Source of the DNA: Pseudomonadota bacterium
GTDB taxonomy: Bacteria; Desulfobacterota; Desulfobulbia; Desulfobulbales; SURF-16
Length of the DNA stretch: 64,000 nt
Direction: 5' to 3'
Assembly: GCA_018897105.1 (NCBI GenBank)
Contig: JAHILF010000011.1
Span: forward strand, 62,001-126,000
Positions 1,942 through 62,378 of this stretch are shown in pieces; the stretch's first letter is position 1, and every line of letters starts with the position of its first letter. Position numbers and translations under genes: made by a program. A model generated the notes under the pieces. That model saw nothing but the letters and a program-made list of their open reading frames with translations. It ran no database searches and was not told the DNA's origin.

Positions 1942-2280
1942 TTATTGCTTTCCCGGGTCTTCGCTCAGAACAATCAGCTGTTGATCACCCAGGGAAAACG
2001 CCTCTTGGATTTTCCCGTAAACCTTGACCTTCTCCCCTTTTCGCGGCAGGGGTCTTTGGGTAATAACCGTGATCTCCCCCGTATCATCCTGAACAACAAA
2101 ATATTTCAGCACCAGGATGCTGATACTCTCAACGACTACCCCGGAGACCTGCACCTGCTTGCCCTCAAAACTGCGAGGGTCCTCAAGCAGTTTGGCAATA
2201 GGCGTCGGGAAAAGGGAAGAACAAGCCGCCAACCAGAGCACTATGAGACATATGACACTGCGCATGATTCTATTTTTCAT
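1942..2280 (-). CDS. small lipoprotein with OB-fold-like core
   Basis: A 112-residue protein with a signal peptide ending in a lipobox (LWLAAC, Cys near residue 20), so probably a membrane-anchored periplasmic lipoprotein. The mature part (KLLEDPRSFEGKQVQVSGVV...VQDDTGEITVIT...KGEKVKVYGKI) has the alternating beta pattern of small OB-fold or 'tRNA_anti-like' periplasmic proteins. No catalytic residues are evident. The start was placed at MKNRIMRS rather than 14 codons upstream because GGAGGG lies 5-6 nt before this ATG and the signal peptide then starts normally. Its start overlaps the end of a start-less open frame at 2270-2506. Confidence 0.7.
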   Translation of the reverse strand: MKNRIMRSVICLIVLWLAACSSLFPTPIAKLLEDPRSFEGKQVQVSGVVVESISILVLKYFVVQDDTGEITVITQRPLPRKGEKVKVYGKIQEAFSLGDQQLIVLSEDPGKQ

Positions 2281-2506
2281 TTTGACCCTCCACGTCAACT
2301 GATTCATTCTTCCTGCTGACATTCACTTCTTTAAAATGCATCGTGCTTCGCCTCCGGCTAGACCGTGCACGGGCTATCACAAAACTCTTCGTTTCGGCCT
2401 CACTCCACCGGCGGTTTTTACTGCGACGCCAGGCATCATCATCGGCAAATGCAGCATTCGGCAGTCCGACAAAATGTGAACAGGATAAATTGGCTAATCG
2501 ACCATC
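2270..2506 (-). pseudogene. start-less open frame overlapping the lipoprotein start, possible gene remnant
   Basis: Reading leftwards from just after an in-frame TGA (2507-2509) there are 78 open codons with coding-like content (LPNAAFADDDAWRRSKNRRW, then ETKSFVIARA). The TAG at 2270-2272 lies inside the lipoprotein's start region, as in translationally coupled operons. The only ATG is internal (STMHFKEV), and upstream in frame is KKIKFILF followed by the TGA. It could be a decayed gene or a frameshifted small secreted protein. I recognise no family. Confidence 0.3.
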
Positions 2507-2509
2507 TCA

Positions 2510-2843
2510 AAAGAGAATAAATTTGATTTTTTTCTCCCCGTATCCGATATTTTGTGAAATCGCAATCTATAGTTGCAGTGCTGTTGAGCTGTTCACTGCT
2601 CCAGGGAATAATCAAGCATCATGTCCCCATACTGGTCGGCTATCTTGATCCTCCTGCTCGTTGGGGAAAATGACACAACGGCAATCCGTTTCCCGGGGTA
2701 AATGGCCTAATTCTGCGGGCACGGAAACTTTTCCTGCCGACTGTCAGCGATTAACACATCGATATTATTTGATAAAAAAATATTTACTCAGATATCACGC
2801 TGTGGTGTTCTTTTTGCTCTCCCTACCAGGCAAAAAGCCGGCT
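2510..2843. other. gene-free stretch upstream of the cytochrome gene
   Basis: AT-rich sequence with no convincing reading frame on either strand. The short forward frames here lack a ribosome binding site and family signature. It probably holds the promoter of the cytochrome gene; I cannot pick out a convincing -35/-10 pair. Confidence 0.4.
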
Positions 2844-2898
2844 CAGCGCAGCGTAACCGGCAAAACAAGTCAGATCAATGCCGGGTTCCGCTGCGCTG
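2844..2898. repeat. long GC-rich inverted repeat just upstream of cytochrome start
   Basis: The arms at 2844-2861 and 2880-2898 are complementary: CAGCGCAGCG against CGCTGCGCTG, then CCGGC against GCCGG after small bulges. The right arm ends 28 nt before the cytochrome ATG, so the hairpin would lie in the 5' leader. There is no T-run, so this is not a simple intrinsic terminator. It contains GCCGGGTT, also present in the two terminators at 4874 and 56447. A leader regulatory structure is possible but unproven. Confidence 0.5.
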
Positions 2899-2926
2899 GC
2901 CCGTCCTGGATGAGAAAGAGGGAAAA

Positions 2927-4813
2927 ATGAAGAAAAAAATGATAAAGAGTCTGCCCCTGTTTTTATTTCTGGCCATGCCTGGTGTGGCCACGGCCCAGTT
3001 GACCTACAGCTTCTATGAGCAGTCGCCTCATAACGGCACCAGTTATATGAACTCGGACAATTTCAGTTTCAGCGACTGCGGGAACTGCCATACGGCTGAT
3101 GGAGTCACGGGAAGCTGGGCTTTTGCCAGCAATCTCTTTCTCTGCACCACCTGCCATGTCAACGAGAGCGGCCCGCCCTACACCCTGTATGCGGCACCGG
3201 CCATGGAAGTTCATTCCGCTGTTGCCATCGCCGACGACGCCAAAGGCACCCTGCTCCGGGGCTGCGGCTCCTGCCACCACGGCCCCACCCAGAACGACTA
3301 TTATCATCCGCCGCAGATTGATCACATCGATCCCCTCCTTACCCCGGCAATCGCCGAGGGAACGTATACAGTGGCCGGTGTCTGGGACCCGGCAGAAGAT
3401 ACGACCACCTTCGCCGGGGTGCAGATGAACGTGAATGATTCCCAGTGGAATGATCTCAGCACCTGGAATAAAAAAACCGGGCCAGAGCGCGGCCTGATGC
3501 TGGAAGTTATCAGGGACCCTGGCTATCGCCCCCGGGTCTGGTACGGTGAAATTCAGGCTGCCTCTGCCAATGCCGACGGTACCATGAACATTGTCATCAA
3601 GGGACAGTTGCGAAATGACGTTTTCGTGCCTTATCCTCCTGGAATCCTGAGAGTTTTTTATGGCCAGGAGGTACTGTCCCGCATCTATACCGATACTACA
3701 GCGCCCTCCTCCTCATCCTGGCCGAGTGCTACCGTGCGTTTCCTGGGCCGCCAAGACGCGGCCAACAACGACGGCCTAGGGCCGAACGGTACCGATTCCA
3801 CCCCGGACGGCATCTGCCAGGTCTGCCACACCACCACCAACTACTGGCGGGCCGACGGTTCCGGTACCGACCATAACCCGGGCCAGGACTGCCTGGGCTG
3901 CCATGATCACAAGAACGGTTTTCTGCCCAGCTGCAATTCCTGCCACGACTACCCGCCGGCCATCGGGGCCAATGACCGGCATAAACGCCACACCCAGCTC
4001 GGCTACGGCTGCCAGACCTGCCATTTTGAAACTACCACCAATGGCACAGATATCGGAGCCACCCACAATAACGGCACGGTCAATGTGTCCCCCGCGCCGA
4101 CTTTCCCCGGGCGGCCCGCCGATGGTTCGCAGGCCTTATCATTTATTTATACCCCGGCCGACGGCGGCGGCAGCTGTTCCGCCAACACCTGCCATGCATA
4201 CTGGGGCTATTCCAACCCGGCCAAGTGGACCCAGAACGTCGAGATGTATGTAGTGCCGCAGATCTCCGCCCTTTCCTCCCTTGATACGGACCGGGTAGTC
4301 ACCCTGGATGCCAGCCGTTCCTCCTGTTACGAGAGCGTGGATGGCGTGTCGGAAGACCGCGTCTGCACCTATACCTGGAATTTCGGCGGCAGCGGCAGCA
4401 TCTTTGGCGGCAACGGCCAGGATGTCATCGTTTACCGCTATGATAACCCGGGCAATTATACCACGGCGCTGACCATGACGGAATCAACCAGCGGGAAAAC
4501 CGCTACCGGAACGATCAATGCCACCGCCTCCCTGGTTGAGACCGCAGCGCCGGCGATTGATTTCACCACCTCGATTACCGGCACGATGGTCACCCTGCAC
4601 GCCGCTTTTCCAGCGGGTGTGCAAAGGGTCTATGTCTACTGGGGCGACCGCCTGCGCTCCGTGTACAGCAAGCCGGCCACCGACGTCATGAGCCACACCT
4701 ATGTCAGAGGCAACAGGACGTACAACGTCCAGGTGCAGACCATTGACGCCGCCCACAAGATGGTGGATTACACCTTCAGCGAGGATGCCGATCTGCGGGT
4801 GACGCTGCCGTAA
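2927..4813 (+). CDS. secreted multiheme cytochrome c with PKD-like C-terminal domain
   Basis: A 628-residue protein with a Sec signal peptide (cleavage near ATAQ, residue 24), so periplasmic or extracellular. Seven CXXCH heme motifs lie at 51, 73, 113, 297, 322, 336 and 362. An eighth heme site of the rarer CX4CH type (C417 to H423) brings the predicted total to eight. Additional His residues (for example the HH at 117-118 and those in RHKRHTQ) could be distal ligands. Residues about 435-535 resemble a PKD/immunoglobulin-like domain (VTLDASRSS...YTWNFG...YRYDNPGNYT). It is likely an electron-transfer protein of anaerobic respiration or extracellular electron transfer. Redox partners are not encoded next to it. 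AGAGGG 6 nt before the ATG supports the start. A terminator follows at 4874. Confidence 0.85.
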   Translation: MKKKMIKSLPLFLFLAMPGVATAQLTYSFYEQSPHNGTSYMNSDNFSFSDCGNCHTADGVTGSWAFASNLFLCTTCHVNESGPPYTLYAAPAMEVHSAVAIADDAKGTLLRGCGSCHHGPTQNDYYHPPQIDHIDPLLTPAIAEGTYTVAGVWDPAEDTTTFAGVQMNVNDSQWNDLSTWNKKTGPERGLMLEVIRDPGYRPRVWYGEIQAASANADGTMNIVIKGQLRNDVFVPYPPGILRVFYGQEVLSRIYTDTTAPSSSSWPSATVRFLGRQDAANNDGLGPNGTDSTPDGICQVCHTTTNYWRADGSGTDHNPGQDCLGCHDHKNGFLPSCNSCHDYPPAIGANDRHKRHTQLGYGCQTCHFETTTNGTDIGATHNNGTVNVSPAPTFPGRPADGSQALSFIYTPADGGGSCSANTCHAYWGYSNPAKWTQNVEMYVVPQISALSSLDTDRVVTLDASRSSCYESVDGVSEDRVCTYTWNFGGSGSIFGGNGQDVIVYRYDNPGNYTTALTMTESTSGKTATGTINATASLVETAAPAIDFTTSITGTMVTLHAAFPAGVQRVYVYWGDRLRSVYSKPATDVMSHTYVRGNRTYNVQVQTIDAAHKMVDYTFSEDADLRVTLP

Positions 4814-46748: not shown

Positions 46749-47324
46749 ATGAAAGTCGTCGCATTTAACGGAAGCGCCCGCAAGGGGGGCAATACCGCCA
46801 CCCTGCTGCAACAGGTGCTCGAGGAAATCGCCAGGGAAGGCATTGAGACGGAGCTGATCGAGCTGGCCGGCAGGGCCGTACCGGGATGTATCGCCTGCTA
46901 CAAATGTTTTGAACGGAAAAACCAGCAGTGCGCCGTTGATAACGATATCATCAATGAGGCTATCGCCAAGATGAGCGAGGCCGACGGCATCCTGCTGGGC
47001 TCGCCAACCTATTTTGCCGATGTTTCCGCCTCCATGAAAGGGCTGATCGAGCGCTGCGGCATGGTGTCCCGCGCCAACGGGGACATGTTCAAAAGAAAGG
47101 TGGGCGCCGGCGTGGTCGCCGTGCGCCGGGCCGGCGCCTCCCATGTCTTCAATTCGCTCAACAATTTTTTCACCATCGGCCAGATGATCATTGTCGGCTC
47201 CTCCTACTGGAACATCGGCATCGGCCGCGATCCCGGCGAGGTGTTAAATGACCAGGAAGGGATCAAGACCATGCAGGACCTGGGCCGCAATATGGCCTGG
47301 CTGATGAAGAAAATCAACTCATAG
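46749..47324 (+). CDS. flavodoxin-like NAD(P)H FMN reductase
   Basis: A 191-residue protein of the NADPH-dependent FMN reductase family: FMN phosphate loop 'FNGSARKGGNT', 'GCIACYKCFERK' with a Cys cluster C-x2-C-x2-C seen in iron-sulfur flavoproteins (first part), and 'LLGSPTYFADVSASMKGLIERC'. Cytoplasmic electron transfer to metals, quinones or other flavins. Start at MKVVAFNG with GAGGAG 9 nt upstream. Its 3' end overlaps the convergent oxidoreductase gene by 11 bp. Confidence 0.88.
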   Translation: MKVVAFNGSARKGGNTATLLQQVLEEIAREGIETELIELAGRAVPGCIACYKCFERKNQQCAVDNDIINEAIAKMSEADGILLGSPTYFADVSASMKGLIERCGMVSRANGDMFKRKVGAGVVAVRRAGASHVFNSLNNFFTIGQMIIVGSSYWNIGIGRDPGEVLNDQEGIKTMQDLGRNMAWLMKKINS

Positions 47325-48285
47325 CCGGTATTTCAACCTCCACCCACCCGCCGAGCTGCGCGGAACGCAGACAGGCATCGCAGACGGACAGCGCGGCCAG
47401 TCCCGCCTCGCCGCTGATGGGATTGGCCCCATCTCCCCTGAGCAAGGCCAGCCAGTCAGTGAGCAGCGGGACAATGGCCGGGGCCGGTGGCACATGGCCG
47501 AGAGGCATGATGGTCCCGCCTTGGATGAACTCCAATCGGCCATGCACCTGATCGCCATGCAGCTCGCCGACCAGCCCGACAAACTCATAGCGGCCGCATC
47601 TGCCCTTGCCGACTTTGCTCGAATCCACCGTGCCCACCACCCCATCAGCCAACTCCAGCTGGGCGGTGAACAGGTCCTCCAGGTTCGGGTTATGGATCTG
47701 ATAACGGGATGCCCGTACCCGCCTGATTTCCAGGCCGGTGATATAACGCAGGGCATCAAACATGTGCACGGCGGTGTGCAGAATGACCCCCGCCCCTGCG
47801 GTGGCTGCATCCTCCAGCCACGCCAGCGAAGAAGGTTCCAGCCGATGGCAGGCGGAAAAGCTGAACAGTCGCCCTGCACTGGCCAGATTACGGCGCAATC
47901 CCTGAATGATGTCGTTATAGCGCAAGGTATGCCCCACCGTGAGGGGCAGGTCCGCATCCTTGAAAAGGGCAACCATCTCGGCACCGCTCCTGCTGTCGGC
48001 AGCCAGGGGTTTTTCCACCAGCAGGGGTTTACGCATCACGGCGCAGTAGCGGGCAATGGCAAGATTGAGGGTGGGGGGAGTGACGGAGATCACCGCTTCA
48101 ACCTCAGGATCATGCACCAGATCATGCCAGTCGGCATGATAGCGGGCATGCCACTTTCTCGCCTGCTCCAGGCCAACAGCCGATCGTCTGGAGATGGCGA
48201 CCAGCTCCAGTCCGGCAATATCCTTGACAATATGCCCGGCATAGCGGGAGCCATGCTTGCCCGTGCCGATAATCCCGACTTTCAT
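47314..48285 (-). CDS. Gfo/Idh/MocA-family NAD(P)-dependent oxidoreductase
   Basis: A 323-residue enzyme: dinucleotide fold start 'VGIIGTGKHGSRYAGHI', signature 'LVEKPLAADSRSG' with the catalytic-site Lys-Pro, 'TVGHTLRYND', and 'HTAVHMFDALRYITGL' with the usual active-site His/Asp. It probably oxidises or reduces a sugar or inositol-type substrate; none is indicated by neighbours. Start at ATG 48285 with GAGG 8-9 nt upstream. Confidence 0.87.
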   Translation of the reverse strand: MKVGIIGTGKHGSRYAGHIVKDIAGLELVAISRRSAVGLEQARKWHARYHADWHDLVHDPEVEAVISVTPPTLNLAIARYCAVMRKPLLVEKPLAADSRSGAEMVALFKDADLPLTVGHTLRYNDIIQGLRRNLASAGRLFSFSACHRLEPSSLAWLEDAATAGAGVILHTAVHMFDALRYITGLEIRRVRASRYQIHNPNLEDLFTAQLELADGVVGTVDSSKVGKGRCGRYEFVGLVGELHGDQVHGRLEFIQGGTIMPLGHVPPAPAIVPLLTDWLALLRGDGANPISGEAGLAALSVCDACLRSAQLGGWVEVEIPAMS

Positions 48286-48382
48286 CACTTGTCCTCTGTC
48301 TGTTTTTTTTGCTGATGGCAGCCGCCAGGCGGCTGTTTTTTATCCTTACACCTTATCAGAGTATAGCAGCTAATCTCCAATT

Positions 48383-48685
48383 TTGGCAAATAGCTCCAGT
48401 TCCACTCCCTATTTCACCTCAAAAGAGTCTGGCAGCGGTCTTGGGCTTGCCATTTGCCGCTCGATTATCCCCAATCATGGCAGCTTCATAACAGTTTCCT
48501 CCACGCCGGGACAGGGTACCTGCTTTGAAATCGAGCTGCCCGCCTGCAGGGAATCAATGGCGGCAGGTAAAGCTGAAGAGCAAGTGGCGCTGACGGAACA
48601 GAAGGGCACCATACATGTCATGGAGGATGAGGAGATTGTCAGAACCATGGTGGAAAACATCCTGCAGCAAATTCTCAGCGGATGA
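48383..48685 (+). pseudogene. fragment of a hybrid histidine kinase
   Basis: The frame encodes the end of a HATPase domain (PYFTSKESGSGLGLAICRSI, then a G3-like STPGQGTCFEIELPA) and the first residues of a receiver domain (GTIHVMEDEEIVRTMVENIL), then stops. Upstream an in-frame TAA (48371) and no kinase core are present. A decayed remnant of a longer sensor kinase. Confidence 0.6.
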
Positions 48686-48687
48686 TC

Positions 48688-50295
48688 TTAACAGCCCTGC
48701 CCGGCAGGCGTCTCCGGGAAAAAACAGTAAGGATCTTTGTCCTTGAAGACGTCAAGGCCGAAGCCATGGACAACCGCCAGGCAACCGCCGCAGACCGGCC
48801 TGATAGGGCAGACGACGCAGGCCGCTGATCCGGCTCGATATCTTTGGGCCGGCTCGCCATGGTAGATAGCGCTGATGCTTTGCTCAAAGACATTACCGAT
48901 GTGAGAGGGAAGCTTACGGCATGCATGGGCCTCGCCATCCGGCAGGATGGAAAAGAAGTTGAAAGCCGCTCCGCAGCCGTGGCCGGCGCAGCCACCGAAA
49001 AGCGGCTGATTTTCCTGGCGGCGGATAATATTCATAAGATTATCCTTGAGACTGATACAGGGATTTTCCCGGGCCGCGGCCAGGTATTTCCCGAGGAAAC
49101 CGGCATAATCCTGCGGCTGCACGGACTGCAGACTGGCCCCTTCCCCCACCATGGCGAGCCGGTTGAAGGTAAACAGGTCCACCCGGTCACGCAGCAACTC
49201 CGCCAGGGGCAGCACCTGATCCATATTGTCCCGGGTCAGGGTCAGCATCACCATGGAGTAGATGCCGAGTTCCCGCAGCAGATCAAGAAAATCCATCACC
49301 CGGGCAAAATGGCCCTTGCCCCGGATATAATCATTATGTTCCAGAAGCCCTTCAAGGCTTACCTGAAAAAACTCAGGCTTTTGTATGGCAATGATCTTTT
49401 CCATGGTAGCACGCGGGGCGGGATTGCCGAGAATTGCCACCATCAGGTTGCGGTCCACCGCCGCCTGGTAGAGTTCCAGAAAATAGGGGTACAGCAGGGG
49501 ATTGCCGCCGGAAAAGGAAACCTGGCCCTGCACATGATATTCGCGGCAGAAACTGCGCAGATCATCGAGAATGGCCAGGCCCTTGGCCAGGGGCAGGGCA
49601 ACCCGGTCGCTGCGGTCGTAACAGTGTTTGCAGTGCAGATCGCAGACCTGGGTGATATGCCATTGCAGGGTAAAAACCGGTGAGAAGAAATAACTCTCGG
49701 CGATATCCTCCCCCCTGGGAAATGTCTGCGGGTTGCGGCGGATAGCAGATGGCGGTTTCAGCAAAATGCCCTGTCCTGCCGCCCGGTCCAGTACCCGGTC
49801 TATCACCCCTACCGCAACCTTGCCTTCTGCTGCCGCTGCCTCCGGCCTGATCTGCTCCACGACGATTTTAAGCGCCAGCAGGTCCTCATCGCGGGCCTCT
49901 CTTATAACAACCTTGCCGGTGACGGGCTGGCAATAGATAAGGACGAACTCCTCCTCAGGCTGGGGAGAAGAATGCCCCCTGTGCTTACTTTCCGGCAGCA
50001 ATGAACATAAATTTTTCCAGTTAAGCTTCAATAATTGCAAGGTCGGATTGACGGTGATCTGGTCAATCTGCGCCGAAATGGCGGTAAAACCCATTGACTG
50101 CATCTGAAAAAAGGCGAGCTCAAGCCTTGCCAGTTCGGGGAAATAGGGGGGAAGCTGTAAACTTTCCTGCAGTTTGGTGATGGTTGACGGAAGATTCTCC
50201 GGGGTAAAGATTTCTCCATTTTCGGCAAGAAGCTGCTGCTGTTGCCTGTCGTCAAGAAAGGAAAAACATACCGGAAAAATGAGTTCTGGTCTCAT
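48688..50295 (-). CDS. sbtM: SbtM-type radical SAM/SPASM maturase (thio(seleno)oxazole modification)
   Basis: A 535-residue enzyme. The N-terminal 190 residues form a distinct helical region, then a radical SAM domain with C218-x3-C222-x2-C225 (QVCDLHCKHCYDRS) and 'VSFSGGNPLLYP', and a C-terminal SPASM region rich in Cys (GGCAGHGCGAA, DGEAHACRKLP, ACVVCPIRPVCGGC) for auxiliary clusters. From memory this matches the NCBI family named 'selenobiotic/thio(seleno)oxazole modification radical SAM maturase SbtM'; I could not verify by search. The sbtA precursor gene lies immediately upstream on the same strand, which is decisive context. Predicted to modify the Cys/Sec-containing SGU motifs of SbtA. 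Confidence 0.85.
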   Translation of the reverse strand: MRPELIFPVCFSFLDDRQQQQLLAENGEIFTPENLPSTITKLQESLQLPPYFPELARLELAFFQMQSMGFTAISAQIDQITVNPTLQLLKLNWKNLCSLLPESKHRGHSSPQPEEEFVLIYCQPVTGKVVIREARDEDLLALKIVVEQIRPEAAAAEGKVAVGVIDRVLDRAAGQGILLKPPSAIRRNPQTFPRGEDIAESYFFSPVFTLQWHITQVCDLHCKHCYDRSDRVALPLAKGLAILDDLRSFCREYHVQGQVSFSGGNPLLYPYFLELYQAAVDRNLMVAILGNPAPRATMEKIIAIQKPEFFQVSLEGLLEHNDYIRGKGHFARVMDFLDLLRELGIYSMVMLTLTRDNMDQVLPLAELLRDRVDLFTFNRLAMVGEGASLQSVQPQDYAGFLGKYLAAARENPCISLKDNLMNIIRRQENQPLFGGCAGHGCGAAFNFFSILPDGEAHACRKLPSHIGNVFEQSISAIYHGEPAQRYRAGSAACVVCPIRPVCGGCLAVVHGFGLDVFKDKDPYCFFPETPAGQGC

Positions 50296-50326
50296 GCAGG
50301 AACCATTATGAAAATCTGTAAAAATA

Positions 50327-50362
50327 ATTCAGGGGCAGGATGACTCGCTCCTGCCCCTGAAT
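50327..50362 (-). terminator. hairpin between sbtA and sbtM (attenuator-like)
   Basis: ATTCAGGGGCAGGA (50327-50340) and its exact 14-bp complement at 50349-50362 with an 8-nt loop; on the sbtA/sbtM strand it is followed by ATTATTTTTA. It looks like an intrinsic terminator allowing partial read-through, which would give more precursor than enzyme, as in many peptide natural-product operons. Confidence 0.75.
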
Positions 50363-50409
50363 GAAAAGTGTCAGACGAAAATGTTATTTCATTGACGGAA
50401 AAAATCTCT

Positions 50410-50442
50410 GCAGTGCGGACCGCACTGCTATTTAGAACCGCT
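50410..50442 (-). promoter_or_regulatory. SECIS-like element of sbtA UGA-3, also terminator-like
   Basis: Fourteen nucleotides after UGA-3 (50445-50443): GCAGTGC (50428-50422), loop GGTCC, GCACTGC (50416-50410). The stem begins inside the TAG stop codon, so the hairpin lies at the very end of the gene, and a run of six T follows at 50404-50399. It may serve both Sec insertion and transcription termination. Confidence 0.75.
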
Positions 50443-50766
50443 TCAGCCACTGGAGCCGATTGGTGCCTTCTTTTCTTCCTCTACCGGGGCAGCAGTTGCC
50501 TTCTCATCGCCTTCAACCGCACCCTCAGTCTTTGTCGCTTCTTCTTGCTTTGTTACTTCTTCTTGAGTGCTGACCGCACTCCCTTTGGTACCGCCTCAGC
50601 CACTGCCTGCGCCGACTGCCTCTGTCTTTTCAGTGCCAACTGCACTGTCTCCTTTTGCGCCTCAGCCACTGCCGCCAAAGGCGACACCGCTACCCATGGG
50701 CAGGCCGCTCAGCAGGCCGGCAATACCCACACCAGCCAGAATCTTCTTCATTTCTTTTGCATCCAT
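50428..50766 (-). CDS. sbtA: SbtA-type selenopeptide precursor with three in-frame UGA codons
   Basis: Read through three TGAs (codons 35, 57, 108) the frame gives 112 residues and ends at TAG (50430-50428). It opens with MDAKEMKKILAGVGIAGLLSGL. Sec contexts are FGGSG-Sec-GAK, GAGSG-Sec-GGT and GSSG-Sec-SGSK; the spacers are Ala/Gly/Glu/Lys/Thr-rich. AAGGAGGAACAG before the ATG at 50766 is an excellent ribosome binding site. This matches the SbtA selenobiotic precursor concept (SG-Sec/Cys-SG repeated motif, maturase next door). The product is probably a ribosomally made peptide whose Ser-Gly-Sec units are converted to heterocycles by SbtM; final structure, export and target are unknown. Conventional gene callers miss it because of the UGAs. 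Confidence 0.88.
50566..50595 (-). promoter_or_regulatory. SECIS-like element of sbtA UGA-2
   Basis: Fifteen nucleotides after UGA-2 (50598-50596): AGTGC (50580-50576), loop GGTCA, GCACT (50570-50566). The loop carries the GGU motif typical of bacterial SelB-binding hairpins such as that of fdhF. Confidence 0.75.
50631..50661 (-). promoter_or_regulatory. SECIS-like element of sbtA UGA-1
   Basis: Fourteen nucleotides after UGA-1 (50664-50662): CAGTGC (50647-50642), loop AGTTG, GCACTG (50636-50631). The stem is nearly the same as in the other two elements (AGTGC/GCACT core). Confidence 0.72.
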
Positions 50767-50853
50767 CTGTTCCTCCTTTTTTTACGAGTTTCGGCAAGGT
50801 TTACTCCCTCTTTCCAGGTGAAGCCCTTTTTACCTAACAACGAAAACTGAAAT

Positions 50854-50882
50854 ATTATCGAGATTTTCTATTCAGATGTCAA
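50854..50882 (-). promoter_or_regulatory. sigma-70-type promoter of sbtA
   Basis: On the sbtA strand: TTGACA (50882-50877), 17 nt, GATAAT (50859-50854), a near-consensus promoter about 85 nt upstream of the sbtA start. The long leader in between is AT-rich with no further motif. It lies in the divergent sbtA/recQ spacer. Confidence 0.65.
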
Positions 50883-50943
50883 TAGTTATACAAAAAACCT
50901 TTTTCATTCGTGTGCCAGCCATAAAAATGGTAGATTGACGACC

Positions 50944-52431
50944 ATGACATCCTTGCAGATTCTGCAGAAATATTTCGGCCACTGCTCCTTTCGGGGGTGC
51001 CAGCAGGAAATCATTGATCATCTCCTGGCAGGCAACCACGCCCTGGTGCTCATGCCCACCGGCATGGGTAAATCCGTCTGTTATCAGATCCCGGCCCTGC
51101 TGCTGCCGGGTCTTACTTTGGTGATCTCTCCGCTTATTGCCCTGATGAAGGATCAGGTGGACGGTCTGCGCCGCAAAAATATCGATGCGGCCTTTATCAA
51201 TTCATCGCTCTCCAAAGCCGAGCGGGAAAAAAAATTGCAGGCGCTTGGCAAAGGAGCCTACAAACTCCTTTACGTTACCCCGGAGCGTTTCCGCAAACCC
51301 GAGTTTGCCGCGCTCATCGCCCGGCGCCCCATCAGCCTGCTGGCAGTGGATGAAGCACACTGCATCAGCCAGTGGGGCCATGATTTCCGGCCGGACTACA
51401 CCCGGCTCAAAGAGTTCCGCGATCTGCTGGGAAGTCCCCTCACCATCGCCCTGACCGCCACGGCAACCCCTGAGGTGCAGCAGGACATCATTACCCAGCT
51501 CGGACTCAAACCCGAGGCCATCAAAATCTTTCACGAAGGGATCAACCGCCCCAACCTCCATGTCAGTGTCAAAGATTTACACGGAGATGACGCCAAGCTC
51601 GAGGCCATTACCAGGCAATGCCAACGGCAGCCGGGCAGCACCATTGTCTACTTTTCCCTGATCAAAACCCTGGAACGCTTCAGCTACCTGCTTGACCGCA
51701 GCAACATTGCCCACTGCTGTTATCATGGCGGGCTGGGCAAGGAGGAACGCCGCCGCATCCAGAACCTGTTCATGACCGGCGGCATTGATCTGATTCTGGC
51801 CACCAATGCCTTTGGCATGGGTATTGACAAGGCCGATATCCGCCATGTCATCCACGCCGAGGTGCCAGGTTCCATGGAGGCCTATTACCAGGAAATCGGT
51901 CGGGCCGGGCGGGACGGTGCCCGCTCGGACTGCACCCTGCTCTATGATGAACAGGATCTGCTCATCCAGATGGATTTCATCAAATGGAACAATCCTGATG
52001 CCGACTTTTACCACCGTCTTTATCAGCTGCTGGCTGACGACCCCGATGCGGCAAACAGCGGCGGCAGCGAATGGCTGAAGGAAAGACTACTCTTTAAAAA
52101 CAGATTTGATTTCCGGCTGGAGACAGCCATAGCCATGTTTGATCGTTACGGCACGACAGAGGGCAGCCTTGAAAACCACGATCTGCATATTGCAGCGCTA
52201 TTGCCTGCCGAACTCAGCCAAAAAAAAATTGCGGATAAAATGCTTGCTGAACAAAAAAAACTGCATTTCATGGTCTGTTATATTAAAACAGATGGGTGCC
52301 GCAAGGCGCTCATCCATGATTATTTCGGCATGGATCATGCCGACCGTTGCGGGGCATGCGACAATTGCCACAGCAACCAGAAAATGACGAACAGGGAAAA
52401 CAACTCCGCCCAGGCCGGAGCAAGGCAATAA
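50944..52431 (+). CDS. recQ: RecQ-family ATP-dependent DNA helicase
   Basis: A 495-residue superfamily 2 helicase: Walker A MPTGMGKSVCYQ, motif II 'AVDEAHCISQWGHDFRPDY' (DEAH followed by the RecQ aromatic loop), 'LTATATPEVQQDI', motif VI 'QEIGRAGRDGARS', and a C-terminal zinc-binding RQC part (C at 'TDGCRKALIHDYFG' and 'CGACDNC'). No HRDC domain follows, so it is shorter than E. coli RecQ (about 610). It unwinds 3'-5' duplex DNA in repair. Start at ATG 50944; a TTG three codons earlier is open. Confidence 0.93.
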   Translation: MTSLQILQKYFGHCSFRGCQQEIIDHLLAGNHALVLMPTGMGKSVCYQIPALLLPGLTLVISPLIALMKDQVDGLRRKNIDAAFINSSLSKAEREKKLQALGKGAYKLLYVTPERFRKPEFAALIARRPISLLAVDEAHCISQWGHDFRPDYTRLKEFRDLLGSPLTIALTATATPEVQQDIITQLGLKPEAIKIFHEGINRPNLHVSVKDLHGDDAKLEAITRQCQRQPGSTIVYFSLIKTLERFSYLLDRSNIAHCCYHGGLGKEERRRIQNLFMTGGIDLILATNAFGMGIDKADIRHVIHAEVPGSMEAYYQEIGRAGRDGARSDCTLLYDEQDLLIQMDFIKWNNPDADFYHRLYQLLADDPDAANSGGSEWLKERLLFKNRFDFRLETAIAMFDRYGTTEGSLENHDLHIAALLPAELSQKKIADKMLAEQKKLHFMVCYIKTDGCRKALIHDYFGMDHADRCGACDNCHSNQKMTNRENNSAQAGARQ

Positions 52432-52475
52432 AGCAAGAAGTCTAACAGCCTGAAGCCGATAAAATCGTATTTTTT

Positions 52476-54155
52476 ATGATTTCATCCGTAATTGACCATA
52501 TGGAAAATCTCATTGTGTGGCTCGGCATAGGACTCGTGGCGGTTGTCGTCTTTCTTCTGGCAATATGGCGGTTCAAAAAAAAGAAAGTGGTTACGAAGCG
52601 CCGCATTTCTGCGCCTTCCCCGCCTCCGTCCGGCCAGAATGATCTGCAGTTCTCCCCCCGTCCCCAATCGCTGCCCTCGGGGGACAATGTGCATCTGCAG
52701 CTTGAGATCCTGCGGCAGACCCTTGATCTGACCACCGCCATTCTGTTATGGGCAGGCCCCGGGGACAAAAACCTGCAGATACTCAGTGTGGCCAGCCTGC
52801 GCGATGATATTGTCCATGAGCCTTTCCCCCGGGGCAGCGGCATTATCGGCGGACTGCGTCCCGGCTGCCCGGAGATTGCCGTCAGCCCGGTACCGCCGCA
52901 TCTCTCCATCCCCTACTATGCTGCCGACAGCAAAACCGGCAGTCTGCTGGCCCTGTCCATCACCATCGCTGCCGGACCGGAAAGTGCCGAACAGAGCGGG
53001 CTCCCCGCCACGGCAATACTCTGCCTTGACCGGGAAAACGAGTCTCCCTGGACACAGCAGGAGCGTGAGGTGGTGGATCTCACCTGCCGCAAACTCTCCC
53101 ATGATCTGCGTTTCACCCATAAAATGGAAGAAACCAACCGCAACATGGAGGCCATCCACCAGATCTGCATGGGCATGCTGGAGTTGAACCAGGTGCTGGG
53201 GCTGCAGGCCGTCTTTGAGGCCACCATTAAAACCGTCAAACAGCTGACCTCAGCCGACTTCATCGCCATCAGCCTGCTGGAGGGCGAAGAGCACCGCATT
53301 GTCATTGCCAGCGGCCCCAAGTCCAGCCACTTTAACGACCTTTCCTTCCCGGCGGATGACGGACTGGTGGGGCAGGCCATCAAACTGCGCCGCTGGATGC
53401 CGACCCATGCCAACTTTCAGGAGGATATCCCGGTATTCAGCAGCAGCATGCGCATCGCCGGCCTGGAATCCCTGCTCATCCTACCCCTGCTGAAAGGGGA
53501 TCAGGAGGCCATCGGCGCCCTGACCGTTGCCGGCAGAAAATCTGATATGTTTCCCAGGGAGCGGCGGGAAATACTGGAAATCATTGCCTGCCAGGTTACC
53601 ACCAAGATCGAACTGGGGCGTGCCCACGAAAGAATCTACCAAATGGCCACCACGGATGGCCTGACAGGGCTTGCCAATCACCGCACCTTCCAGCATGCCT
53701 TTGACAACATGCTGCAGCGGGCCCTGCGCCAATCTATTCCCCTGACCATGGTGCTCTGCGATCTCGATTACTTCAAAAAGATAAACGATACCTATGGGCA
53801 TCCCTTTGGCGATGCCGTCCTGCAGGAGGTGGCCAGGGTGCTGGCGGGTACGGTCCGACAAGTGGACCTTGCCGCCCGTTACGGGGGCGAAGAATTTGCC
53901 CTGCTGCTCGAGAATTCCAATATCACCGGGGCGCTTAAACAGGTAGAGAGGGTGCGCCGGGCCATCAGTGCTCTGGAATTCCCCCATAACGGCAGCAGCA
54001 GTAAGATTTCCATGTCCTTTGGCCTGGCCTCCTTTCCCCAGGATGCGCAGAACAAAAACGATCTGATCAAAAGGGCGGACCAGGCGCTGTATCACGCCAA
54101 GGCCAGGGGGCGCAACCGGAGCGTCTGCTGGTCCGACACCCAACAGACAGATTGA
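52476..54155 (+). CDS. GAF-GGDEF diguanylate cyclase
   Basis: A 559-residue protein with an N-terminal transmembrane helix (LIVWLGIGLVAVVVFLLAIW), a divergent first GAF-like region (about 60-210), a clear GAF domain (about 230-390: VFEATIKTVKQLTSADFIAI...DDGLVGQAIKLRRWM) and a GGDEF domain with intact site AARYGGEEFALLLE. It should synthesise c-di-GMP. Together with the cyclase at 43035 and the riboswitch at 56388 it gives the window both producers and a possible sensor of the messenger. An ATG 8 codons in (MENLIVW) is an alternative start. Confidence 0.87.
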   Translation: MISSVIDHMENLIVWLGIGLVAVVVFLLAIWRFKKKKVVTKRRISAPSPPPSGQNDLQFSPRPQSLPSGDNVHLQLEILRQTLDLTTAILLWAGPGDKNLQILSVASLRDDIVHEPFPRGSGIIGGLRPGCPEIAVSPVPPHLSIPYYAADSKTGSLLALSITIAAGPESAEQSGLPATAILCLDRENESPWTQQEREVVDLTCRKLSHDLRFTHKMEETNRNMEAIHQICMGMLELNQVLGLQAVFEATIKTVKQLTSADFIAISLLEGEEHRIVIASGPKSSHFNDLSFPADDGLVGQAIKLRRWMPTHANFQEDIPVFSSSMRIAGLESLLILPLLKGDQEAIGALTVAGRKSDMFPRERREILEIIACQVTTKIELGRAHERIYQMATTDGLTGLANHRTFQHAFDNMLQRALRQSIPLTMVLCDLDYFKKINDTYGHPFGDAVLQEVARVLAGTVRQVDLAARYGGEEFALLLENSNITGALKQVERVRRAISALEFPHNGSSSKISMSFGLASFPQDAQNKNDLIKRADQALYHAKARGRNRSVCWSDTQQTD

Positions 54156-59597: not shown

Positions 59598-62378
59598 ATG
59601 GAAAGAGAAGGTTACTCGGACAGAATTGTGTTTGTGAGCTACGCGGTTCTCGATCAAGTTGATCATGAGTGGTTGGAACGACTCAGACGTCATGTTAAGC
59701 CTCTGGAGAAGCGATATCATTTTGAGTTCTGGGACGACAGCAAGATTCAGCCAGGCAATGAATGGCAGCATGAGATCGAGAAAGCCCTTGATTGCGCAGA
59801 AGCGGCCGTGCTGCTTGTAGGTCCAGCCTTCCTCGCGTCCGACTTCATCGGGCAGATAGAGCTGCCGAGACTCTTGAGACGAGCAAAAGAGATGGGTCTA
59901 CCGATCCTCATTCTAATTACACAGCACTGTAATTTCGAAGAGTCAGACCTTGTAGAATTTCAGGCGTTTAAACTGCCGAACCAGCTACTCAGACCTCTTG
60001 AGGCCCTTCCAGTGCCCGATCAAAACGAATATCTGAAGAAGTTTAGCCTAGCCATCAAGAGAGCAGTGGAGTACCGAACGCTACCGGGGTACCCCCCGAA
60101 TAATCTCGGAAAAGTTCGACACAACCTTTTGATTAAGCCGATCAACGTGATTGGCCGAGACCAAGAGATAGAGTTCCTTCTTAGCTCATTTGAGGCACAT
60201 GACAAGCCGGTGATATTGGCATCCGGTTTTGGTGGTGTGGGAAAGAGCACGGTCGCACTTGTGGCAGCCTGGAAGTGTGTCGAGCGTCATCAGCCTTTCA
60301 AGTTCATCGTCTGGCTAGACCTGAGACAATACGGCCCAGAGGGGAAAGCGAAACCCATCACCTTGGGATTTGTACTGGACAGTATTGCAAAGGTCGCGAA
60401 TCCCACCAGCGAAATTGTATCCATTGGCGATCCGGAAGTCAAAACCGCCCGCGTCCGAGAGTTGCTTGCCGCTACTCGCTCTCTTCTGATTTTCGACAAC
60501 TACGAAGGTCTACTGGAAAATCCCGATGAGGAGGAAAAGGTTGCTCGTTTCATCGAGTCCTTGCCTATCTGTCCTTCGAGCGACGAAAACTGTCCATGCA
60601 TACGTGTCCTGATAACAACTCGTGTTGTATCACCAACCCTAGCAAGACTCCCCATTTACAACAAGAGGTTGCGCAAGCTCCCGTTCCAAAAATCCTTAAA
60701 GATGATGAAGTCGCAGCCGGGTGCTCGCAACCTAACCAAACAGCAATGGAAACGAGTTTGGGAAATTCTTCAGGGGCTGCCAAAATACATGCAAATCGCC
60801 GTCGGGCAATTGAAAGAAATGACGTTTTCGGACTGGGAAGAGGAAGTCACGAAAATCCAATGGCAACCTGACAGGCCAGATGACTTTTTCTCTGACCTGT
60901 TCGATTCTTCCTGGAACAATCAAATGATTATTTCGGAAGATCTACGGCAGATTCTCCTTGCGATGACTTACTTTATAGGGCGTGCCAAGCCAAACGAGTT
61001 GCACGGAACCAGTGGTCTCTCCAAAGAGCGCTTCCGAGACGCACTGGCTTCTCGCTTCAATGCATCATATCTGGAGGTCGTTCGCGATGAAAGCGGTCAA
61101 GAATACTATACTATGCATCCCTTGATGTATACCTACTGTGCAGCAGCCTTAAACAGCGAAGAGTTCCGTGAGTTTCGAAAACTATCCAGCGCACGATTTG
61201 TGGATTGCTTTTTGAGGTTTGCTGAAGGCGCTAGGGAAAACAACGACCTGAATTTGCTTGATGGAGAGTCTCAGAACATCTTAGCCGCAGTAAGAGTTGG
61301 GGGTCGGCTCAAATCATGGGAAAATCTCATCGGCTTTCGCAGATACATAGCTGACTTCCTCAGACTTCGAGGAGCCTGGGGGGACTATTGTGAAATCGTT
61401 GAACTCGCAGTCAATGCGTCTCGCGCCTTGGGCAAAGAAGTGCTCTTGGCGGAATGCCTTGTGTATGATTTGGCTTGGTACTACTTGCGTCTCGAAGATG
61501 TGCAAACCGCTCAAGAGTTCATTAACGAGGGACTCATACTGTTTGAGAAGCACCAGCATCGGCCGGGCATGGCACAAGCGAAGCGCCATTTGGGGAAGGC
61601 GGCAGTTCTGGACGGGCTCAATGAAATATATGAACCCAATCAATTGGCAGGAGAATATTTTGACCGAGCGGAGCAATATTACCGAGAAAGCCTTGACCTT
61701 CGAGAACAATTGCAGGAGGAAGGGTACGATCAGTGTATGGCCATTGCGGATATGAAATTAGATTTCGGGCGTCTTTACTGGCTCCAGGGCATGAAGCTAG
61801 AGCAGGATGGCAGATTACAGCAGGATGACAACCTTTTGGGCCAAGCTCTGGAGAAGTACAAAAAAGCCGACAGCGTAAGCGAAGAGGCAAGGCAGGAATT
61901 CAAGCTTATGCCTCTAAGCGAGGAAGTTTCCAAAGGTAGGATTGCCAAAGCTTGGGGCAATCGGGGCAACGCTGCCAAAGAGATTGCATGCTACATGGGT
62001 TGGAACCATAAATGGGCCTATGTTTATGTTAAAAATTACGTGGAAACAGCAAAAAGCTACTATGGCAAGAATCTTTCACTAGGCAAGGAGATTAAAAAAG
62101 AAGATGAGATTGCTCATGCTCTAGCCGGTTTGGCCGAGGTAGGGGTCATTGAAAGCCGCTGTGTAGATCCTTCTATGGATACGAAAAAAAAGAGATCTTT
62201 TTTGGAAAAAGCGAAGGAGAATGCTCATATTGCACACAGTTCATATGAAGAGCTAGCAGGTCCCAGGGGGCAAATGGGGAACCCATTGGGCACTCCAGCA
62301 AAGAAAACCCGAGACGAAATTCGCACTGAACAGCTCACCGAGAAAATCGGGTATCTACTAGCGTCGTTGCCTGAATAG
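59598..62378 (+). CDS. TIR-STAND (NB-ARC-like)-TPR protein, bacterial NLR-like
   Basis: A 926-residue protein. TIR domain at 10-160 (VFVSYAVLDQVDHEWLERLR...FWDDSKIQPGNEW...FLASDFIGQIELP) with the likely catalytic Glu E88. A STAND NTPase follows: Walker A GFGGVGKST (210-218), Walker B SLLIFDNYEG (295-304), sensor-like 'VLITTRVV' (338-345). From about 560 on come helical TPR-like repeats (LAKECLVYDLAWYYLRLEDVQTAQEFI-type). GGGAGGAGG lies 7 nt before the ATG. TIR domains of bacterial immune proteins cleave NAD+; the STAND core oligomerises on ligand sensing. Best guess: abortive-infection sensor/effector co-expressed with the fusion gene. Confidence 0.85.
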   Translation: MEREGYSDRIVFVSYAVLDQVDHEWLERLRRHVKPLEKRYHFEFWDDSKIQPGNEWQHEIEKALDCAEAAVLLVGPAFLASDFIGQIELPRLLRRAKEMGLPILILITQHCNFEESDLVEFQAFKLPNQLLRPLEALPVPDQNEYLKKFSLAIKRAVEYRTLPGYPPNNLGKVRHNLLIKPINVIGRDQEIEFLLSSFEAHDKPVILASGFGGVGKSTVALVAAWKCVERHQPFKFIVWLDLRQYGPEGKAKPITLGFVLDSIAKVANPTSEIVSIGDPEVKTARVRELLAATRSLLIFDNYEGLLENPDEEEKVARFIESLPICPSSDENCPCIRVLITTRVVSPTLARLPIYNKRLRKLPFQKSLKMMKSQPGARNLTKQQWKRVWEILQGLPKYMQIAVGQLKEMTFSDWEEEVTKIQWQPDRPDDFFSDLFDSSWNNQMIISEDLRQILLAMTYFIGRAKPNELHGTSGLSKERFRDALASRFNASYLEVVRDESGQEYYTMHPLMYTYCAAALNSEEFREFRKLSSARFVDCFLRFAEGARENNDLNLLDGESQNILAAVRVGGRLKSWENLIGFRRYIADFLRLRGAWGDYCEIVELAVNASRALGKEVLLAECLVYDLAWYYLRLEDVQTAQEFINEGLILFEKHQHRPGMAQAKRHLGKAAVLDGLNEIYEPNQLAGEYFDRAEQYYRESLDLREQLQEEGYDQCMAIADMKLDFGRLYWLQGMKLEQDGRLQQDDNLLGQALEKYKKADSVSEEARQEFKLMPLSEEVSKGRIAKAWGNRGNAAKEIACYMGWNHKWAYVYVKNYVETAKSYYGKNLSLGKEIKKEDEIAHALAGLAEVGVIESRCVDPSMDTKKKRSFLEKAKENAHIAHSSYEELAGPRGQMGNPLGTPAKKTRDEIRTEQLTEKIGYLLASLPE

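Follow-up and report, generated by a model that had tools for sequence, protein, structure and literature searches.

A predicted three-selenocysteine SbtA precursor, its SECIS-like hairpins and a probable DUF2063-like recruiter domain in the radical SAM maturase SbtM

The closest described relatives of the locus studied here are two groups of ribosomally synthesized and post-translationally modified peptides (RiPPs). In the SbtA/SbtM group, a precursor rich in selenocysteine (Sec) is acted on by a radical S-adenosylmethionine (SAM) maturase: according to a review, an SbtM removed four hydrogens from cysteine (Cys) and Sec peptides in vitro, and the Cys product was identified as a thiooxazole by nuclear magnetic resonance (PMC11002830). 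Its absorbance near 302-305 nm has led to grouping with bufferins and related peptides (PMC12668002, PMC12538549), which belong to the captophorins and depend on MNIO (multinuclear non-heme iron-dependent oxidative) enzymes; bufferins act as periplasmic copper chelators and, as PMC12452194 presents the field, are the only RiPP precursors for which export by the Sec (general secretion) route has been shown in the natural host. Here we analyze an sbtA-sbtM locus in a 64,000-nucleotide stretch of a Desulfobulbales genome (GCA_018897105.1, contig JAHILF010000011.1, positions 62,001 to 126,000; "the window"). We posit, with a probability of about 0.6, that the locus encodes a RiPP precursor in which three UGA codons specify Sec and SbtM makes selenooxazoles, and that the product is likely exported and holds soft metal ions in the envelope. 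An earlier note, made from the window's sequence alone, had considered the product chemically undescribed; the removal of four hydrogens and the thiooxazole spectrum contradict this, as do the NCBIfam names of TIGR04081 (SbtA) and TIGR04082 (SbtM), which already say thio(seleno)oxazole. The locus falls in a family that already has a name and a known ring chemistry, and its triple Sec is by itself no discovery. Its value lies in an export-type precursor, in the architecture of its selenocysteine insertion sequence (SECIS) elements and, above all, in a recruiter common with MNIO systems.

The sbtA frame and its UGA codons

Read with TGA as Sec (U), the minus strand from 50766 to 50428 encodes MDAKEMKKILAGVGIAGLLSGLPMGSGVAFGGSG-U-GAKGDSAVGTEK...GAGSG-U-GGTKGSAVSTQ...GSSG-U-SGSK, followed by TAG (50428-50430, minus strand; coordinates of all features are collected in Table 1). 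The earlier note had proposed searching this read-through protein against SbtA models, and TIGR04081 matches it with 41.3 bits (cut-off 30.5), the match being limited to residues 1-24. Much of the reading in that note is upheld: a family-like frame that stays open through three TGAs for 112 residues, Sec codons in SG-Sec-(G/S)G context (GSGUGAK at 35, GSGUGGT at 57 and SSGUSGS at 108), a good ribosome-binding site (AGGAGG, 5 nt upstream of the ATG) and an SbtM gene downstream on the same strand. Its near-consensus promoter is present as an 11/12 match, but such sites are about as frequent in shuffled sequence (2 found in the region vs 1.5 expected), making it weak when taken alone. Terminator-like sites number 6 vs 3.7 expected, and the one between the two genes is predicted to reduce the maturase transcript relative to that of the precursor.

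The source genome (4.95 Mb in 177 contigs) carries the Sec machinery that the earlier note suggested looking for, with tRNA-Sec at 71.5 bits, SelA at 616, SelD at 379.9 and SelB at 373.4, and its SelD gene itself holds an internal TGA. Among genomes of the phylum, SelB was not a significant sign of Sec dependence, being found in 38 of 39 genomes with SbtM and in 315 of 356 others (p 0.10). The homologue comparison, for which the window SbtA was aligned by codon with seven relatives, gave a largely favorable answer: TGA occupies the three sites in 8, 7 and 5 of the eight sequences, and the third site has Cys (TGC) twice. The remaining two codons, GGA and GGG, both encode Gly and both come from a single relative of the same genus as the window (L075); they weigh against strict conservation. 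The sbt system of that relative may be decaying, given Gly at two of three Sec sites. Beyond the first UGA, the ratio of nonsynonymous to synonymous substitution rates (dN/dS) is 0.13-0.56 in six comparisons, which indicates protein-level constraint. With the hairpins described below, the machinery and the codon conservation support the original reading, and we consider it very likely that all three UGAs of the window sbtA are decoded as Sec.

SECIS-like hairpins and selenocysteine number across the family

Each window UGA is followed, at identical spacing, by a small hairpin whose stem is CAGUGC/GCACUG or similar and whose loop contains or adjoins GU. Their stability relative to shuffled sequence is modest (z -1.64, -1.48 and -1.97), and an Rfam scan of 47000-53000 reported three sub-gathering matches, which we judged to be chance, and none to a SECIS family; given the modest stability of single hairpins, the question was taken to the whole SbtA family. 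SbtA frames beside SbtM were gathered from 47 named loci (and found in 38 of them) and from further genomes, yielding 57 distinct peptides in a first set and 20 more in a second set from a phylum-wide search, derived from 54 and 17 loci, respectively. Weak hidden Markov model matches (L017, L018, L021 and L076), fragments in L016 and L019, and L112 were dropped; rows were cut in L061 at the terminal UGA, in L022 and L074 at an internal deletion and in L108 at a UGA taken as a stop. In L022 and L074 the first Sec is followed by the apparent terminal SECIS of their relatives, as if the part between had been deleted.

A hairpin was counted when at least 5 bp began 9-20 nt after the codon, and a GU loop was scored separately. 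In the first set, 116 of 125 Sec sites (excluding 8 UGAs that have another UGA within nine codons) have a hairpin vs 15.2 expected from shuffles, and 108 have a GU loop (2.8 expected); the corresponding numbers for Cys sites in the same motif are 5 of 20 (3.3 expected) and 2, and UGAs taken as stops have a hairpin in 2 of 7 cases (1.8 expected). The second set repeats this pattern, with hairpins at 43 of 44 Sec sites (7.0 expected), 26 of them with a GU loop (1.1 expected), and at 3 of 15 Cys sites (2.8 expected), none with a GU loop. Fisher tests of hairpin association with Sec rather than Cys give 1.5e-10 and 5e-9 for the two sets. On 43 sites selected by their loop alone, 88% of cells pair, compared with a mean of 67.5% and a maximum of 73.6% after column shuffles, and slid registers of the same alignment pair in 15% to 45%; compensatory changes fall in 48 cells, a number that never exceeded 22 over 500 column shuffles. 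Seven Sec sites in three Nitrospirota loci have no hairpin under the criterion applied. In pairs of UGAs nine codons or fewer apart (L010, L011, L014, L031, L041, L055-L057, L097, L099, L108 and L111), mostly one clear hairpin is present, after the second, and the first UGA has a GU-loop hairpin of its own in 0 of 8 cases in the first set and 1 of 5 in the second.

The hairpins may also account for features of the peptide. The recurring SAVST/SAVGT/SAGST after the Sec motif is encoded where the RNA hairpin lies, so this stretch need not serve the SbtA peptide itself; the system is compact, since a small peptide can hold as many as four Sec, and its RNA element would impose a repeat on the peptide. 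Of 56 Sec-bearing genes, 44 have their last Sec at most nine residues from the C terminus, which places the SECIS of that Sec at or past the stop codon. The contrary reading, in which translation truly ends at the first UGA and yields a peptide of just 34 residues, takes UGA at its table 11 meaning, as ordinary gene callers would by stopping there. Constraint past that codon, hairpins with compensatory changes, the exchange of UGA for TGC, and G, S or A as the residue before 181 of 183 family Sec leave it scarcely credible.

Three Sec had seemed extreme in the earlier note, yet among the 77 distinct SbtA peptides 0, 1, 2, 3 and 4 Sec occur in 3, 3, 37, 30 and 4 members, respectively (with the last UGA of L055-L057, which may be a plain stop, counted as Sec, so that their number is possibly one too high). 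A three-Sec sbtA is also present in the culturable relative Desulfogranum japonicum DSM 18378 (L036). The three-Sec peptide of the window is a common form of a family to which a 2026 review of prokaryotic selenoproteins, in its entry for TIGR04081, gives two Sec (PMC13188914). The SbtA core is a low-complexity repeat with up to nine Cys in addition to its 0-4 Sec. Three members have Cys only, namely L102, L013 (in which [ST]SCSG occurs seven times) and the second of the two SbtA at L097. Searching predicted proteins with the L013 peptide brought up 32 relatives. We considered whether Cys-only SbtA marks genomes that lack Sec, and the data do not support this: SelB exceeds its cut-off in the L047 and L102 genomes; in the L013 genome SelB matches are partial and below the cut-off, probably from a broken-up SelB. 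At L097 a four-Sec SbtA and the Cys-only SbtA (offsets 426 and 850, minus strand) lie beside one SbtM, which suggests that a single maturase serves both peptides. The two to four Sec that 71 of the 77 members carry, together with export-type leaders, could also point to selenium storage or delivery by an exported multi-Sec carrier like mammalian selenoprotein P. We regard this as very improbable: a store would not tolerate Cys-only members or the replacement of Sec by Cys site by site.

The maturase and its probable N-terminal recruiter domain

The AlphaFold2 model of SbtM has a mean predicted local distance difference test (pLDDT) score of 89.6. The cysteines of the radical SAM motif CxxxCxxC (C218, C222 and C225) and of the SPASM region (C436, C441, C459, C493, C496, C502, C505 and C524) are invariant or near-invariant in 35 SbtM. 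When the whole model is used, a structure search is filled by the radical SAM domain; a recruiter emerges only when the N-terminal domain is searched alone. The structure 3DEE is described as a typical MNIO partner in which a DUF2063 domain is fused to a RiPP recognition element (RRE), and TglI (8hi7) as the partner of the MNIO TglH (PMC12452194). A paper about captophorin enzymes that install 5-thiooxazoles also figures 3DEE, as the type 1 partner (PMC12668002).

Profile comparison supports this resemblance. Aligned by hhalign with a DUF2063 set (30 of 120 relatives, among the matches listed, of a DUF2063 protein from genome G059), the SbtM N-terminal alignment scores 75.2, with a probability of 96.9 and an E-value of 1.4e-10 for the one comparison, over SbtM 6-142. 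Controls score far lower: at most 34.8 in 30 runs with shuffled columns, 17.6 with the alignment reversed and 23.1 with the radical SAM part. Whole SbtM aligns with the DUF2063 set at that N-terminal place only, and the two groups have the motifs FPxCR, PxYLPxLAxxE-like and NPxL in common. Several results weigh on the other side. A profile search with SbtM 1-200 against Protein Data Bank sequences did not find 3DEE. Pfam matches to 26 SbtM members were sub-threshold, NGO1945_C being matched by three (best E-value 0.014) and DUF2063 by two (0.074), and the lowest E-value over these members, 0.004, belongs to a sigma-70 region 4 model in one of them. In five SbtM genomes searched with DUF2063, the best match, itself sub-threshold, falls on the SbtM N terminus in two (G046 and G024; E-values 0.02 and 0.04), which is weak; it lies elsewhere in G000 and G011, there is none in G311, and other weak matches in the same genomes score nearly alike. 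On balance, homology of the SbtM N terminus to the DUF2063-RRE partner of MNIO enzymes (PME) is well supported by the profile alignment. We met no literature linking SbtM with DUF2063/PME, and a mention in Lewis et al. 2021 (Biochemistry 60:3347) is possible.

Among 116 genomes of the order, 71 (in 25 of 49 genera) have SbtM above its cut-off, as do 39 of 395 genomes of the phylum, the source genome being included in both counts. MNIO (PF05114) was not found in the source genome; it occurs in 1 of the order genomes and 16 of the phylum genomes, none of which has SbtM. Since about 1.6 of the 395 would be expected to have both from the frequencies, the observed 0 is not significant, and the absence of MNIO from SbtM genomes is suggestive only. 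G059 (L113), the sole MNIO genome of the 116, is 78% complete and has no SbtM match; its DUF2063 partner adjoins the MNIO. Locus L049 contains, at 2180-3665, an SbtM stretch with seven stops in translation, a degraded or frameshifted copy.

Table 1. Features of the sbt locus, in window coordinates
Feature	Position	Strand	Basis or remark
sbtA, 112-residue precursor, Sec at 35, 57 and 108	50428..50766	-	TGA-as-Sec translation, TIGR04081, codon conservation, dN/dS
N-terminal leader, residues 1-30, predicted dual role as export signal	50677..50766	-	TIGR04081 over 1-24; family leaders
UGA codon 35	50662..50664	-	TGA in 8/8 aligned sequences, window included
UGA codon 57	50596..50598	-	TGA in 7/8; remaining one GGA
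UGA codon 108	50443..50445	-	TGA in 5/8; TGC (Cys) in 2, GGG in 1
SECIS-like hairpin 1, CAGUGC-AGUUG-GCACUG	50631..50647	-	inside codons for SAVGT and neighbors
SECIS-like hairpin 2, GAGUGC-GGUCA-GCACUC	50565..50581	-	inside codons for SAVST and neighbors
SECIS-like hairpin 3, GCAGUGCG-GUC-CGCACUGC	50410..50428	-	starts at last base of TAG, in 3' untranslated region; also terminator-like match
Ribosome-binding site AGGAGG	50772..50777	-	5 nt before sbtA ATG
Sigma-70-like promoter of sbtA, TTGACA-17-GATAAT, 11/12	50854..50882	-	sequence pattern
Terminator-like hairpin, 14 bp and T tract, between sbtA and sbtM	50327..50362	-	sequence pattern
sbtM, radical SAM/SPASM maturase, 535 aa	48688..50295	-	TIGR04082 749.9 bits, cut-off 350; 132 nt downstream of sbtA
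SbtM residues 1-183, DUF2063-RRE (MNIO-partner-like) recruiter domain, by homology	49747..50295	-	
SbtM residues 207-526, radical SAM core and SPASM	48718..49677	-	Pfam PF04055, PF13186

Export, gene neighborhood and relation to known systems

At the end of the hydrophobic stretch, 22 of 77 SbtA have a lipobox-like Cys at residue 27-29 (LALPGC, FTGC, VSGC, MAGGC and similar). A lipobox pattern test picks out 17 of 57 SbtA, three of them through a core-motif Cys, and 24 of the 32 Cys-type database relatives; by eye, 30 of these 32 carry such a leader Cys. All 40 first-set members without a lipobox have a small-x-Ala triplet at 23-36 by a loose test, and 18 have AxA. The window SbtA, whose leader ends GVA-FGG, is a weak case for export. 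Taken over the family, these patterns give moderate support to the idea that the SbtA leader doubles as an export signal.

No widely shared neighbor emerges from the neighborhoods of the 47 named loci and the window (n = 48), annotated through 20 family representatives, with further small families outside that annotation. The most frequent families are GGDEF (12), two-domain ABC-F-type ABC-ATPase (11), PAS/GAF histidine kinases (10), exonuclease/phosphatase (7), DHFR (7), FMN reductase (6) and RNase_H_2 (5); within the same annotation, no exporter, protease or immunity family is common across clades. Confined to single clades are a PreP-type M16 peptidase (4), MsrA (3), MacB- and HlyD-type genes (3) and an NMT1-type binding protein (3), a distribution of transporter and peptidase genes that is compatible with a general secretion route but does not prove one. 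The MacB-type permease and HlyD/CusB-type membrane-fusion genes occur near sbtA-sbtM in L039, L043 and L053, in this clade only, and an MsrA (PMSR) gene with a signal-like N terminus adjoins sbtA in the Nitrospirota loci L027, L030 and L042. Elsewhere in the window, positions 59598-62378 (plus strand) encode a 926-residue protein with a TIR-like N terminus (PADLOC ThsB model, 45.9 bits) and, by eye, NTPase and TPR-like regions, possibly an anti-phage defense protein.

These neighborhoods and leaders bear on what the mature peptide might do. The 2026 review lists TIGR04081 as "Selenobacteriocin" (PMC13188914), and RiPPs are often antimicrobial; the single-clade MacB-/HlyD-type genes and PreP-type peptidases could then serve a selenium-containing toxin secreted against competitors. 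We find this improbable: transporter, protease or immunity families common across clades are missing from the 48 neighborhoods as annotated, the 22 lipoprotein-like precursors would be anchored, and a core of low-complexity repeats is more in keeping with a chelator than with a ligand-like toxin. The MsrA genes suggest a different role, in which SbtA would be an envelope redox agent or a scavenger of electrophiles and peroxides whose selenolate or selenooxazole is oxidized instead of envelope proteins, in keeping with the redox chemistry that Sec serves. This, too, is unlikely, if a more serious contender: the MsrA link is clade-specific, and the oxidation of Sec and Cys by SbtM (PMC11002830) would leave no ordinary catalytic selenol.

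For the reading we prefer, an exported selenooxazole peptide that holds soft metals, we envisage the following steps. SelB would read all three UGAs, one SECIS-like hairpin serving each; the N-terminal domain of SbtM would dock SbtA; and the radical SAM/SPASM part would take four hydrogens at each [SG][GS]Sec[GS] site, following the chemistry published for a different SbtM, so that the Sec residues are predicted to become selenooxazole rings. The modified peptide could then leave by the general secretion route. In the most speculative step, proposed by analogy, the chalcogen-oxazoles of SbtA would bind copper or another soft metal, Sbt doing with SAM radicals and selenium what the captophorins (bufferins, oxazolin and fontiphorin) do with MNIO enzymes. 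More broadly, the chances seem evenly balanced that Sbt represents a branch of the captophorins built on radical SAM and selenium, in which a DUF2063-RRE recruiter was fused to a radical SAM/SPASM engine where MNIO is rare, the same rings are made, and exported peptides or lipopeptides bind soft metals in the envelope, selenium tightening the binding. This bridge would matter: one recruiting module and one ring type appear to occur with two enzymes of unrelated kinds, the MNIO (iron-dependent) and the radical SAM type, with exported precursors in both cases. If it holds, the role of selenium RiPPs can be tested directly through metal binding and envelope location, and work on MNIO and captophorins acquires a radical-SAM counterpart in Desulfobulbaceae-type and related bacteria.

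Compared with known systems, the window locus is closest to the SbtA/SbtM thio(seleno)oxazole RiPPs, with which it shares a precursor and a maturase above curated cut-offs, SGUG motifs, UGA with SECIS and an adjoining maturase gene; it differs in having three Sec, against two in the example of the 2026 review and 0-4 in the family. Three further features, namely the export-type leader, the SECIS in the 3' untranslated region and the DUF2063-like recruiter, are reported here on the basis of sequence. With the captophorins, RiPPs that are exported, bind copper and carry 5-thiooxazoles made by an MNIO and its DUF2063-RRE partner, Sbt has in common a homologous recruiter, the ring type as far as published spectroscopy goes, and precursors of predicted export type with repeated short Cys-Gly motifs. 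The captophorin catalyst is a separate MNIO, and that of SbtM is a radical SAM/SPASM domain in one protein with the recruiter; captophorins use Cys and an EGKCG motif, whereas SbtA uses Sec and mostly S(G/S)(U/C)(G/S), and a metal role for Sbt is proposed by analogy. SuiB, CteB and SkfB are likewise radical SAM/SPASM RiPP maturases with an RRE, and they make C-C or thioether crosslinks, unlike SbtM. Their alignments, including those of 5wgg and 5why, which we take to be CteB, mostly begin at SbtM 166-193 (SuiB 5v1s at 74), leaving the helical N-terminal domain of SbtM unmatched by these maturases.
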